Positions 3,761 through 32,108 of a DNA stretch of 32,108 nt are shown one piece after another. The notes beneath the pieces are model-generated. The model worked only from the letters and a program-made list of their open reading frames with translations. It did no database searches and was not told where the DNA came from. This DNA is from a bacterium (GTDB taxonomy: Bacteria > Verrucomicrobiota > Kiritimatiellia > RFP12 > UBA1067): assembly GCA_030537465.1 (NCBI GenBank), contig JAUNMP010000035.1:1-32108 (forward strand). Reading direction: 5' to 3'. How positions within the stretch are numbered: position 1 is the first letter of the stretch; every line of letters starts with the position of its first letter. A program made the position numbers and the translations under genes.

Positions 3761-4342
3761 TCACCATCCAAGGGCCTCGAAGACCTGGTCGTAATTCACG
3801 CGTTGTGAGTCTTCTGCTTCATCGATCAAATCATCATCCAGCAGAGAATCCGTTCCAAGGACCTGCATGGCCCCACACGTAGAACCATCCTTCGGCAACA
3901 CGATACGCTCGTTGGTTGTGGAGAGCGAGGTCCGACACATCGCGGGGAGCTTGCCGTCAAATTGGTGGACAACACGACGGAACCCGTCCTTGAGAGAATC
4001 CATTCCGAAATTCACCACCAGACCAACCTGAAGACCCGTCAGTACCAGATAAGTTCTGACCTGCTTCATGTAGACGGGCAGAAGTTGTGGCGTCGACTTC
4101 AATTCGACAACGACCTTCCCGTCGACCAGCAGATCCAACCGGAACGCATTCTCGAAGACCACCTTCTCATATTCAAACGACACGGACTTCTGGCGTTCAA
4201 CGACATGCCCACGACGAACAAGCTCTATCATCAGGATGCGTTCATAGACCGACTCCAGAAGGCCTGGTCCAAACATCCTGTGAATCTTGACCGCCGCGTC
4301 AAGCACATCACCCGTTATGTCGTTAATCTCCACTCTTTCCAA
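3761..4342 (-). CDS. GxxExxY protein, predicted PD-(D/E)XK-type nuclease (PDDEXK_3)
   Basis: This protein of up to 193 residues carries the family signature GLLESVY (residues 27-33) after the typical N-terminus EINDITGDVLDAAVKIHRMF. The segment RLDLLVDGKVVVELK provides Asp70, Glu80 and Lys82, matching a PD-(D/E)XK nuclease core. The family (TIGR04256/PF13366) often occurs in many copies per genome and its biological role is not established. No ATG fits the start. TTG at 4342 or GTG at 4333 both give a family-like N-terminus, and neither has a convincing ribosome binding site. The last ~65 residues, after the normal family end at VVHQF, do not resemble the family and may be added sequence. The gene lies between oppositely oriented copies of a GC-rich repeat. 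Confidence 0.82.
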   Translation of the reverse strand: MERVEINDITGDVLDAAVKIHRMFGPGLLESVYERILMIELVRRGHVVERQKSVSFEYEKVVFENAFRLDLLVDGKVVVELKSTPQLLPVYMKQVRTYLVLTGLQVGLVVNFGMDSLKDGFRRVVHQFDGKLPAMCRTSLSTTNERIVLPKDGSTCGAMQVLGTDSLLDDDLIDEAEDSQRVNYDQVFEALGW

Positions 4343-5015: not shown

Positions 5016-5072
5016 TTTATTTAGGACTTCAGGCATAAGTGAGGAACTTCTTACAAGAAATACGAAAATGAC

Positions 5073-27899: not shown

Positions 27900-29318
27900 T
27901 CACCCCAGATCAACGCCACGGGCGACGAGGGCCGCGCGGACTTCGGATGCCGGAACCTGGCGTGGCGTGCGGTCGCTCTTCGCCGCGAGCGCGGCGGCAA
28001 GACCGGCCGCCTCGCCGATCGCCATACACGGCGTCATCACGCGGTAGCTCGCATGCGCCCGATGCGTACCGGAGATGCAGCGTCCCGCCGTCAGCAGTCC
28101 CTCGACCCCCTTCGGCAGGAGCGCACCGTAGCGGATGTCATACGGCTTCGCCATCTTCGAGTGCCCCTCCGCCTGGCCGCCCCCCTTCGGATTGTGGATA
28201 TCGATCAGGAACCACGCCTGATGGACGACGGCGTCGGGATGGACACGGCCCTCCACGACGTCCGCGTCGACGACCATCGCGTCGCCCATCACCCGCCGCG
28301 TCTCGCGCACGCCCAACGTGCTGGCAGCCGACTTCACGCGGCACGTCTCGAAGCCCGGCACGTAGTTCCGAAGGAAGGCGACGCACGCGTCGATCTGGTT
28401 GCGCAGTTCCACTTCGGCCTTGCCGAGCGCCACGGGATCAAGCACGTCGATGCCGTTCAGCTGCGTCGCGTTCACACTGCGCTCGCCCGGATAGAACGTG
28501 CGGTGCAGCCGGACGATTGTCACGTTCTGCGGCAGCTCCCCTTCGCGGTTCTTCCGCTTGCAGAGTTCGCGGTACTCGAGCGTCTCGCCCGTCTTCAGCG
28601 TCACCTTCACGGGATCCGTCCCGCCCCAGGCCGTGATGCCACGCGTCTCGTCCACACCGTCCACCACGAACTCGAGCGTCGACGGCTGCGTGCCGCCGTC
28701 GGATTCGCGTCCGATCTTCGTCTCGGCCCCCGCGCTCACCGCCACGCGCCCGTCGCCCGTCGCGTCCACGACGACCTTCGCACGAATCGTACGCAGCCCC
28801 TTCGGCGTATCGACGACGAGCCCCGTCACACGGGTACCGTCCATCAGAGCGTCTACGACCGGTGCGCAGAGGAGCACCGTCACCCCCGCCTGCGCACAAA
28901 GACGCGCGAGGATGCCCTTCGCCTCCTCGTGGTCGATGTGTTCCTCCGGACCATTCCGCGTCATCACCTTCTTCGCGTCCTGGTGGTTCGCATTCAGCAG
29001 CGTGCGAATCTCGTCCGCCATCGTCCCCTTCGACGCCTTGCCAAGGACGGGCGAGACGTGTCCAAGCGTGAGATTGCCGCCCAGGCAGCCGAAGCGCTCG
29101 ACGAGAATCGTCTTCGCACCCGCCCGCGCCGCGCTCACCGCCGCGCAGACGCCCGCAGGTCCTCCGCCCGCCACCACGACGTCGGCTTCTAGCCACGCCG
29201 TCGCGGACACCTCGGCCCCCGTTCGCGTCGTCTTCGCCGCGGCCTCGGTCGCCGTCACGCACGTTCCCGCCGCCATCACGGCGGCGCCCTTCAGAAAATT
29301 CCGACGATTGAAATCCAT
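27900..29318 (-). CDS. Tat-exported FAD-dependent oxidoreductase (second paralogue)
   Basis: This 472-residue protein starts MDFNRRNFLKGAAVMAAGTC, a Tat signal. The dinucleotide-binding motif VVVAGGGPAGVCAAVSAARA lies at residues 47-66, LVERFGCLGGNLTLG follows, and the mid-domain VVDATGDGRVAV is typical of the FAD_oxidored (PF12831) family. The C-terminal flavin contact reads LLTAGRCISGTHRAHASYRVM. It is about 180 residues shorter than the paralogue at 23387 because it lacks the extra C-terminal domain. The substrate is not known. The ATG at 29318 has AGGAGA eight bases upstream and lies 15 bases after the PIN toxin stop, so it may be read from the toxin-antitoxin promoter as well. Confidence 0.87.
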   Translation of the reverse strand: MDFNRRNFLKGAAVMAAGTCVTATEAAAKTTRTGAEVSATAWLEADVVVAGGGPAGVCAAVSAARAGAKTILVERFGCLGGNLTLGHVSPVLGKASKGTMADEIRTLLNANHQDAKKVMTRNGPEEHIDHEEAKGILARLCAQAGVTVLLCAPVVDALMDGTRVTGLVVDTPKGLRTIRAKVVVDATGDGRVAVSAGAETKIGRESDGGTQPSTLEFVVDGVDETRGITAWGGTDPVKVTLKTGETLEYRELCKRKNREGELPQNVTIVRLHRTFYPGERSVNATQLNGIDVLDPVALGKAEVELRNQIDACVAFLRNYVPGFETCRVKSAASTLGVRETRRVMGDAMVVDADVVEGRVHPDAVVHQAWFLIDIHNPKGGGQAEGHSKMAKPYDIRYGALLPKGVEGLLTAGRCISGTHRAHASYRVMTPCMAIGEAAGLAAALAAKSDRTPRQVPASEVRAALVARGVDLG

Positions 29319-30227: not shown

Positions 30228-31685
30228 TCATCCCAGGAAAGCGCCCTGTTCCTTCAGTTTTGCGACGAGTCCATTCGCATCGAGCGTGCGGGGCGTCGCC
30301 CCCGACTTCACGCACAGGGCCGCGGCCGTGCCGGCGGCCTGGCCCATCGCCATCACAGGCGGCATCACGCGGACGGCTCCCGCCGCCTCGCTCGTCGCCG
30401 ACAGACACCGACCCGCCACAAGCAGATTCTCCACCTTGAGCGGCACAAGGCACCGATACGGCACGCCGTACCAGTTGCCGTCCCGCACCGTGACATACTG
30501 GTTCGACATCGGCCCGAATCGGCCGTGGATGTCCACCGAGTTGGACGCGCAGAGAATCGTGTCCTTCGGCATCCGCCCTTCCAGGCAGTCGTCGACCGTG
30601 AGGCGGTATTCGCCGTAGATGTGCCGCGACTCGCGCACGCCAACGGTCGAACCCGTGCACAGGAGGCGCGCGTCGGCGCACCCGGGAACGTACTTCTTGA
30701 AGAACGTGAAGATCTGCTGGACCTGGCGGCGACCTTCCGACTCGGCATCGCTCCAGCTTTCCGGATCCGTCGAATTGACGCCCATGATGCGGGACGTGTT
30801 GATGAACCACTCGTCTTCCTTCACGCCGCGGAAGAGGCCGATCGAGACGCGCTTCAGATTCCAGTCGCCCGCCGCCTTGGCCTGGGCGACGCGCCAGTGG
30901 AGCGAGCGGTAGTTGACGCCGTCCTTGCGGTAGAAGTTGTCCTTGTTCGCCTCGATGTCCGCCGTGATCGCCTTCAGATCGCAGTTGCCGATGCGGAAGA
31001 ACATCGTCGCAGGCTGGACGCGCTTCGCAGCCGAATCGCCGTATTCCGTCGGTACACCCGTGCGGAACGCCACGTCACCATCACCCGTCGCGTCGATCAC
31101 GATCTTCGCCTTCACCGTCCGGAAGCCGGCCTTCGTGAAGAGACGCACGCCCGTGATCGTGGACCCTGACATCACCGGCTCGACGAAGTCCGCATGAAAG
31201 AGCACCTTCACGCCCGCCTCGGCACACATTTCGTCCAAGACGACCTTGAGCGCCTCCGGCTCGAACGGCGTGCAGTGGTCGTGGCCGATCTTGATCCAGC
31301 TCGTGAACGCCGTTCCCGTGCGGCAGTCGCGCGGGTGGATGGCGCCGCCCTTCGCGACGAGGCGCTCGACGATCTCTTCGAAGAGGCCCTTGATGATCTG
31401 CCGCTCGCCCGTCTTGTCGTAGCAGGTCATGAATGGTCCCACGAGGCCGCGCGTCGCCATGCCGCCCAGACAGTTCCCGTGTTCGACCAGGAACGTCTTC
31501 GCGCCGTTGCGCGCCGCCGCGATCGCCGCGCACACGCCGGCCGGGCCGCCGCCCATCACGGCGACGTCGTACGATCCACCGTCCGCTGTCTCCGCACCTT
31601 TTTCGGCACGTCCTGCGACCGCCACCCCCGCCGCTGCGGAAACGGCCACGCCCTTCAGAAAACTCCGACGATTGAAATCCAACAT
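30228..31685 (-). CDS. Tat-exported FAD-dependent oxidoreductase (third paralogue)
   Basis: This 485-residue protein starts MLDFNRRSFLKGVAVSAAAG, again a Tat signal of the FNRRxFxKG form shared with the two other FAD paralogues here. The FAD motif DVAVMGGGPAGVCAAIAAAR lies at residues 40-59, followed by LVEHGNCLGGMATRG. IVIDATGDGDVAFRTG and the C-terminal LLVAGRCLSATSEAAGAVRV complete the FAD_oxidored (PF12831) pattern. It is closer in layout to the 27900 paralogue than to the longer 23387 one. The ATG at 31685 was taken over a TTG two codons upstream. A TATAAT lies 14 bases before it, giving a very short leader, and a 328-bp inverted-repeat element lies just beyond the promoter. Confidence 0.88.
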   Translation of the reverse strand: MLDFNRRSFLKGVAVSAAAGVAVAGRAEKGAETADGGSYDVAVMGGGPAGVCAAIAAARNGAKTFLVEHGNCLGGMATRGLVGPFMTCYDKTGERQIIKGLFEEIVERLVAKGGAIHPRDCRTGTAFTSWIKIGHDHCTPFEPEALKVVLDEMCAEAGVKVLFHADFVEPVMSGSTITGVRLFTKAGFRTVKAKIVIDATGDGDVAFRTGVPTEYGDSAAKRVQPATMFFRIGNCDLKAITADIEANKDNFYRKDGVNYRSLHWRVAQAKAAGDWNLKRVSIGLFRGVKEDEWFINTSRIMGVNSTDPESWSDAESEGRRQVQQIFTFFKKYVPGCADARLLCTGSTVGVRESRHIYGEYRLTVDDCLEGRMPKDTILCASNSVDIHGRFGPMSNQYVTVRDGNWYGVPYRCLVPLKVENLLVAGRCLSATSEAAGAVRVMPPVMAMGQAAGTAAALCVKSGATPRTLDANGLVAKLKEQGAFLG

Positions 31686-31699
31686 TTTCAAAACCTCAC

Positions 31700-31705
31700 A
31701 TTATA
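31700..31705 (-). promoter_or_regulatory. -10 element (TATAAT) of the third FAD oxidoreductase gene
   Basis: The minus strand reads GACTATAATGTGAGG, with a perfect TATAAT 14 bases before the ATG. The leader would be under ten bases and would include only part of the GTGAGG purine stretch. No -35 match is seen. Confidence 0.5.
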
Positions 31706-31739
31706 GTCTAGTCTTCGAAGTGGTGAGTGGTACATTCAG

Positions 31740-32067
31740 AACGCAGATGCCTTCGGCATACACAGTTTTGCCGAAGACCGTTGTGGCTACAACGCCCTCG
31801 CCAAATCGCAATTCATTGACCAATCGGAGACCCCCATTTACGGCGAGGGCTACGCCACAAACGGTCTTCGGCAAGTTCGTGCATCGGAGAGCCAATCCCT
31901 TCCGGACATAGTGCCGCCGACCATGTAGGCATCTTGGCGAAATCCGATTCCGACGTAGACCGCGCACAAATGAACTGTCGATGATTTCCATTAAATTACT
32001 CATAGCGCGGGCGTCGTAGTCGGATCGAATTTCGCCAAAATCTGCGTATGCCGAAGGCATCTGCGTT
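31740..32067. mobile_element. MITE-like 328-bp element with perfect 22-bp terminal inverted repeats
   Basis: Both ends carry AACGCAGATGCCTTCGGCATAC in inverted orientation (31740-31761 and 32046-32067), and each end contains its own small ATGCC-TTC-GGCAT hairpin. Inside are two further inverted repeats. The first pairs 31768-31802 with 31842-31874 (14-bp and 9-bp perfect segments, 6 bp between). The second pairs 31934-31954 with 32019-32038 (about 90% matched). TTCA occurs directly outside or overlapping both ends (31735-31738, 32067-32070), which might be a target duplication but is too short to trust. No transposase or convincing protein is encoded; an open frame across it merely reads through the arms. 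A structured RNA is the main alternative. Confidence 0.65.
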
Positions 32068-32108
32068 TCACTCAAAACTTTGTGGAACCCACTCGTTGAA
32101 TCATACCT

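Follow-up and report, generated by a model that had tools for sequence, protein, structure and literature searches.

A probable decayed, gene-less copy of a modular mobile element with ISL3-like ends and GxxExxY-bearing ancestry in an uncultured Verrucomicrobia-related bacterium

ISL3 elements carry ends beginning GG-TCTTC and are flanked by 8-bp A/T-rich duplications. REPINs and integron attC sites utilize paired or bulged hairpins as recognition elements, and the hairpins of attC and IS200/IS605 possess an extra-helical base at a fixed place. The accessible part of PMC4133298 uses the term mobile insertion cassette (MIC), and that of PMC4990558 presents the 23S rRNA intervening sequences (IVS) with an S23-type ORF as small selfish elements whose ORF decays. 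In the family analysed here, the ends (GGCTCTTC...), the 8-bp A/T-rich duplications and the small multicopy units without a transposase recall the ISL3-family insertion sequences and their MITEs; however, the interior is not a deleted ISL3 and consists of a pair of bulged hairpins with a P mini-hairpin on either side, to which the long copies add a GxxExxY gene. Similar to MICs, one copy (L035), the only clean case, contains a passenger gene between IS ends and no transposase, but the passenger is bracketed by hairpins that are also situated behind other outer ends (L044) and in other genera; L035 qualifies as a MIC, and the copy in the window does not. A small selfish element with one small decaying ORF also resembles the IVS as the accessible text describes them, but the present family lies outside rRNA, with ISL3-like ends, 8-bp duplications and a different protein. 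Compared with REPINs and attC sites, with which the paired or bulged hairpins are shared, the stems are much longer, and no tied Y1 transposase or attC core was found. The window copy has the form of a MITE; what is new lies in its origin and hairpins.

The window, i.e., the whole stretch of 32,108 bp that was analysed, is contig C424 of a 5.19-Mb genome in 438 contigs and has a G+C content of 63%. The stretch 31709-32089 probably represents a degenerate copy, lacking its gene, of a modular mobile element with ISL3-ended, GxxExxY-bearing ancestry (Table 1). In its fullest form, such an element would consist of an ISL3-like end, P, a bulged hairpin X, a leader with the GxxExxY gene, a bulged hairpin Y, P and a second ISL3-like end.

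Table 1. Features of the probable element in the window, the neighbouring gene and the GxxExxY reading frames of related copies
Feature	Position	Strand	Remarks
Probable decayed, gene-less element, whole	31709-32089 (381 bp)		Aligned copy flanks
Left outer end, beta type of ISL3-like terminal repeat, diverged	31709..31730	+	6/22 mismatches to beta consensus
P hairpin of the left end, ATGCC-TTC-GGCAT; forms the outer portion of the 22-bp repeat	31741..31763	+	
Bulged hairpin H1: stem of 20 bp plus one extra A; TACAAC/TAC internal loop	31768..31874	+	
Linker, apparent leftover of the leader that preceded the lost GxxExxY gene, to the CATCTTGG junction	31875..31933	+	By-eye comparison with leaders
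Bulged hairpin H3: stem of 20 bp plus one extra A; TACGAC/TAC internal loop; orientation opposite to that of H1	31931..32041	-	
Right end hairpin P	32044..32066	-	
Right outer end, beta type, diverged	32068..32089	-	5/22 mismatches
TAT-signal FAD-dependent oxidoreductase gene, outside the element	30231..31685	-	PF12831 E 4e-127; PF10518 TAT_signal 4.5e-4; ATG at 31685
TATAAT, outside the element, between element and FAD gene	31700..31705	-	Promoter role unlikely
GxxExxY ORF between hairpins	L017:4608-5063		151 aa
GxxExxY ORF between hairpins	L035:2104-2559		151 aa
GxxExxY ORF between hairpins	L044:2693-3118		141 aa

A sequence-only reading had described a perfect 22-bp inverted repeat at 31740-32067 enclosing two more imperfect inverted repeats, and these pairs lie where it placed them. 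The arms of the 22-bp repeat (31740-31769 and 32038-32067, 30 nt) are 93% complementary with the first 22 positions perfect, one inner pair (31768-31782 and 31860-31874, 15 nt) is 100% complementary, and the other (31931-31948 and 32024-32041, 18 nt) is 89% complementary. The inner repeats, regarded as nested, both exist, but as hairpins that stand next to each other rather than one inside the other. Although it was taken for the terminus, the 22-mer does not mark the end of the transposon, and the element is larger than the 328 bp assigned to it: in the alignment of the copy flanks, conservation extends beyond the 22-mer to ISL3-like terminal repeats, placing the true outer ends at 31709 and 32089. 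The left outer repeat sits where other copies carry the beta repeat, and the TTC triloop of the left P belongs to the TNC/GNA class. By eye, the 59-bp linker resembles the start of the leader present in L017, L035 and L041. The folding check proposed by the same reading showed folds far better than those of shuffled sequences for RNA of the plus strand (-177.8 kcal/mol, z -11.8), RNA of the minus strand (z -8.5) and DNA (z -9.7), with 0 of 100 shuffles as good in each case; an Rfam search of the window copy gave no match up to E=1. The flanks at 31701-31708 (TTATAGTC) and 32090-32097 (CACTCGTT) do not match, and no 8-bp duplication is recognisable in them. Because the flanks are unmatched and the outer ends diverged, transposition of the window copy itself cannot be claimed, and this copy is probably now immobile.

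In its own genome, the window element gives 83 BLAST pieces, and the same search gives none in 15 other genomes of the genus. Exact P sites number 63, compared with 0 in the control; the fetched stretches hold 63 motif clusters (one long copy, being split, is counted twice), with P in 54 and an H arm in 46. Most copies terminate in alpha repeats (GGCTCTTCRGGYATAAGTGTGGGTC or the variant GAGGCTTC), found at 61 sites with at most 3 mismatches versus 1 in the reversed control. Other copies, including that in the window, terminate in beta repeats (GGYTCWTSGAAGTTTTTAGTGG), found at 11 sites with at most 2 mismatches versus 1 in the control; the beta ends are ISL3-like by the GGYTCWT start of the better-preserved copies, and no autonomous ISL3 parent with beta ends was found. 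The 8-bp flanks match at at least 7 of 8 positions in 17 of 26 end pairs, versus 0.8% of 650 mispairings under unshifted scoring. Every pair in the fetched loci whose ends each showed 5 mismatches or fewer was scored, which gave the 26; the window copy, with 6 and 5 mismatches, lies above that limit. The duplications are 81% A/T, versus the 63% G+C of the window, and two beta copies are among the duplication-bearing pairs, at 7/8. Nine of the 26 pairs have no duplication at this level, of which three are mixed alpha/beta and three are compact copies. Compact copies of 132-133 bp (L052, L053 and L064) consist of ends plus the P palindrome only. In L044, the outer ends are neither alpha nor beta, and the core is thus not tied to these ends alone. 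Multicopy, dispersed, short and without a transposase, the family has the properties of a MITE; the proposal of a MITE-like non-autonomous transposon is supported by the many scattered copies, the ISL3-like ends with 8-bp duplications in other copies, an intact ISL3 transposase in the source genome, and a full-length ISL3 element with such ends in another MAG. Elsewhere in the window, at 5023-5047 (+), a lone alpha ISL3-type end with 3 mismatches is situated upstream of a gene, with no partner recognised.

The source genome encodes one ISL3 transposase, intact over 456 codons (PF01610 E 5e-62; NF033550 above cut-off). An alpha-like end is located behind this gene at C377:18430-18450, and no left end was recognisable. 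A complete ISL3 with alpha ends on both sides is present in L072, a 3.3-kb contig of another MAG (CADAKR010000206.1); its transposase is 73% identical to that of the source genome, and the alpha ends of the family equal its ends. The 8-bp duplication in L035 lies outside the ISL3 ends, indicating movement as one unit, and an ISL3 transposase is therefore the likely mover. Judging from this anatomy, the hairpin/GxxExxY element would be moved by the ISL3 transposase acting in trans. Transposase matches occur in 20 of 114 genomes, the source genome included. Related ISL3 ends (CTTCGTGCATGAGTGTGGGTC) are found in several copies in G003, G005, G008, G011, G037 and others, and on contig C127 of G011 a pair of ends of this type surrounds, 1.7 kb apart, a 65% identical transposase.

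Each half of the element contains, from the outside inward, the P mini-hairpin and a ~105-bp hairpin of type H1, H2 or H3. The two types differ in all 28 copies in which both could be typed (ten 1-3, nine 2-3 and nine 1-2; two more copies have one side untyped), a figure to which no probability is attached because related copies are not independent. A homotypic unit is a near-perfect long palindrome, and cells tend to lose such sequences. Of 51 extracted hairpins, one was not anchored, and 44 of the other 50 have full-length arms. The stem of 20 bp carries one extra purine, located at position 6 or 7 from the internal loop in 42 of the 44 parses, and one of the two exceptions is a mis-parse (L131 minus, where the 3' loop reads AC). 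For covariation, rows were dropped for this mis-parse, L015 minus, 5' arms not starting with T and 3' arms not ending with A, and L131 was re-entered with the right arms, giving a cleaned set of 41 rows. The 29 distinct arm pairs provide 580 cells, comprising 557 Watson-Crick, 8 G-T, 6 A-C and 9 other combinations, with two-sided Watson-Crick changes at 17 of the 20 stem positions. One arm of the internal loop reads TACRAC or a variant (TACGAC or TACAAC in 26 of 41 rows), and the other reads TAC in 38 of 41. Two other genera, represented by G034 and G041, have different stem sequences with the same bulge and internal loop; in L128 and L129 of G034, no more than one end each is present. The weak matches G102 and G018 were discarded, containing no P-H unit on reading. 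Taken across the three genera, the constrained geometry suggests that the hairpins persist because of their structure as DNA. The nearly equal counts of G-T and A-C and the inverted, symmetric placement of asymmetric hairpins favour a role in DNA over one in a single RNA strand, although they are not proof.

The triloops of P are GNA or TNC in 59 of 70 sites, versus 9 of 138 hairpins with a stem of 6 that served as background, from 257 kb of source-genome contigs, related P copies not being independent; closing pairs were removed, and 8 of the 78 P sites in total have other loop lengths. GNA loops are unusually stable in DNA. An origin of the P loops from target duplication, as direct repeats, was rejected: left and right loops agree, by eye, as inverted copies and not as direct ones, and P therefore appears to be retained as part of the repeat. 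A recurring insert of ~67 bp, a string of GAA/GCAA-loop mini-hairpins, is situated inside H2 or H3 in L019, L022, L024 and L035, and probably also in L018, L020, L033, L037 and L039, where the hairpins are longer or only partially in view.

Three copies carry a GxxExxY gene between their hairpins. All three ORFs exceed the curated cut-offs of TIGR04256 and PF13366 (PD-(D/E)XK superfamily), and the D, E-x-K and Q-x-x-x-Y residues to be expected are invariant across 11 aligned proteins. L035 is a complete unit of 1,011 bp with alpha ISL3 ends, an 8/8 duplication and one passenger gene. Between L017 and L035, the dN/dS is 0.14, the only reliable value since dS exceeds 1.4 in five of six pairs; it suggests that purifying selection has acted on the protein between these two copies. 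A PDB sequence search with the GxxExxY protein gave nothing up to E=10; among viral contigs, seven stretches fit the peptide pattern and none was confirmed as a homologue. The window copy lacks the gene and retains just the start of the leader; L041 keeps the leader plus a promoter-like word without the gene, and L039 keeps a 65-residue remnant. By its sequence, the window copy appears to be a gene-deleted derivative, MITE-like in form. In L035, the word GGCATCTTGG occurs, by eye, in the leader and again at the start of hairpin H3, so that gene loss between direct repeats is plausible. The deletion, probably by way of direct repeats of CATCTTGG, would have removed everything from just within the leader up to where H3 begins, and the gene-less, MITE-like form would have continued to spread after the gene was lost. 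Hypothetically, the hairpins would most likely be sites that the GxxExxY protein binds or cuts.

The left end of the element is 24 bases before the FAD start codon. According to the sequence-only reading, the FAD-proximal end was the right-hand one, 35 bases from a TATAAT; the distance holds when counted from 31740, but the gene lies left of the element and is read from the minus strand, so the proximal end is the left one. The TATAAT (31705-31700, minus) is 3 bases from the true outer end at 31709. As a -10 box, it would start the transcript within the ribosome-binding site, and a sigma-70-type promoter search across 31600-32108 found none. The P end-hairpin motif is absent from the 1.7-kb stretches around the starts of three FAD orthologues (G010, 84% identical; G009, 83%; G003, 81%), and the element is therefore probably an addition in this lineage. 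A single copy kept in place, which the same reading had named as grounds against its proposal, is not what was found: copies are many, and the three orthologues lack P. In addition, a second FAD oxidoreductase, 39% identical to that adjacent to the element, is encoded at 27903-29318 (-) in the window.

The main alternative is an ordinary ISL3-derived MITE in which the gene came along by accident, the hairpins are no more than the usual product of inverted repeats, and template switching, by rewriting one arm from the other, keeps the arms complementary. We regard this as possible but rather unlikely. It would account for the ISL3 ends and duplications and for the compact copies of ends plus P palindrome; furthermore, both arms change together in blocks (CCCTCGCC/GGCGAGGG to CTTCGGCC/GGCCGAAG), and template switching during replication can also keep paired arms alike. 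However, template switching would tend to erase a bulge and an asymmetric loop, yet both keep their place in nearly all hairpins and across three genera, and the P triloops, predominantly GNA or TNC, also depart from the background. Another proposal, that the P-hairpin core is an independent mobile unit inserted into older MITEs of alpha, beta or L044 type, with the ISL3 ends as mere hosts, draws on the same core behind three unlike outer ends and on its different flanks in G041. It is weakened by the lack of a visible duplication at the P boundary, by triloops that agree by eye more often as inverted than as direct copies, and by the presence of P already inside the compact copies, and we consider it improbable.

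A different kind of single-strand mobile element with bulged hairpins, either a REPIN with a Y1/RAYT transposase or an integron attC-like site, would be consistent with the fixed extra-helical base and with two weak Y1_Tnp matches in the source genome. Nevertheless, L046 has no P-like word and L047 only one-mismatch decamers, the GTTRRRY core of attC is absent, by eye, from the stem base of the printed arms, and the 8-bp duplications lie outside ends of the double-strand type, which makes this origin very unlikely. The REPIN/RAYT candidate was rejected, as no P hairpin was found beside the two weak Y1 genes, the only ones found in this incomplete genome. Also very unlikely, and the least probable of the alternatives, is an RNA explanation: a structured RNA, the other option of the sequence-only reading, or a leader belonging to the FAD gene. 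Strong folding on both strands, the position 24 bases before the FAD start codon and the stem covariation fit such an RNA, but dozens of copies lie at unrelated places and the P motif is missing upstream of the three orthologues. The Rfam search was negative, there is no bias of G-U over A-C cells (8 versus 6), and the asymmetric hairpin recurs in inverted orientation at either end, a layout expected of DNA termini but not of a single transcript.

Among other GxxExxY genes, that of G041 is 80% identical to that of L044 and is directly followed by P hairpins; it is located outside the two-hairpin block, not between the hairpins. Inverted repeats were scored around ten further GxxExxY genes, namely the second one of the window and nine from PLSDB records, with control maxima of 13 among 500 placements and 12 among 19 other genes. 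The score exceeds 13 in five of the ten: the window (25), Bacteroides (21), Bernardetia (16), Gemmatirosa L203 (45) and Gemmatirosa L202 (70, probably coding sequence). Scores in Treponema (11), Fusobacteria (11), Prevotella (10), Persicobacter (9) and Sphingomonas (8) are not above the control. The Gemmatirosa L203 gene possesses a full hairpin on either side. These scores support, without establishing, hairpin or inverted-repeat bracketing of GxxExxY genes as a wider pattern. The second, distant GxxExxY gene of the window, at 3761-4342 (-), encodes 193 aa and is flanked by the inverted repeat CTCTCGCGGAGGCGCGGAGGCGCGGAGA. In a Sphingomonas plasmid (L139), a GxxExxY gene with no visible inverted repeats around it is situated between fabD and fabG of the fatty-acid synthesis cluster, in the same orientation.

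A literature search, from which subscription journals were mostly excluded, found no role for GxxExxY proteins and nothing relevant on the repeat words or on PDDEXK_3. One paper, in its accessible part, mentions GxxExxY a single time, for a gene adjoining a reverse transcriptase. The link of GxxExxY genes to repeat- or hairpin-flanked units is new as far as this search reached. As a tentative and doubtful extension, GxxExxY proteins, a widespread PD-(D/E)XK family, might belong to an unrecognised class of small selfish DNA units, each combining the nuclease-like gene with repeats that form hairpins; the protein would recognise the extruded hairpins by their fixed extra base, asymmetric internal loop and GNA mini-loops, and so copy or protect the unit. 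Here, the unit would have been captured between ISL3 ends and would have spread mostly in gene-less form, with the heterotypic pairing of the three hairpin types filtering out perfect palindromes. GxxExxY genes exist in many phyla, and a hairpin-bracketed mobile unit would supply a concrete candidate substrate for their products. Meanwhile, on the reading preferred here, of decayed copies of an ISL3-ended, GxxExxY-bearing element, a MITE family may be seen in the middle of its formation: cassettes with the gene, copies with part of it deleted and copies without it occur side by side in this uncultured lineage related to Verrucomicrobia.
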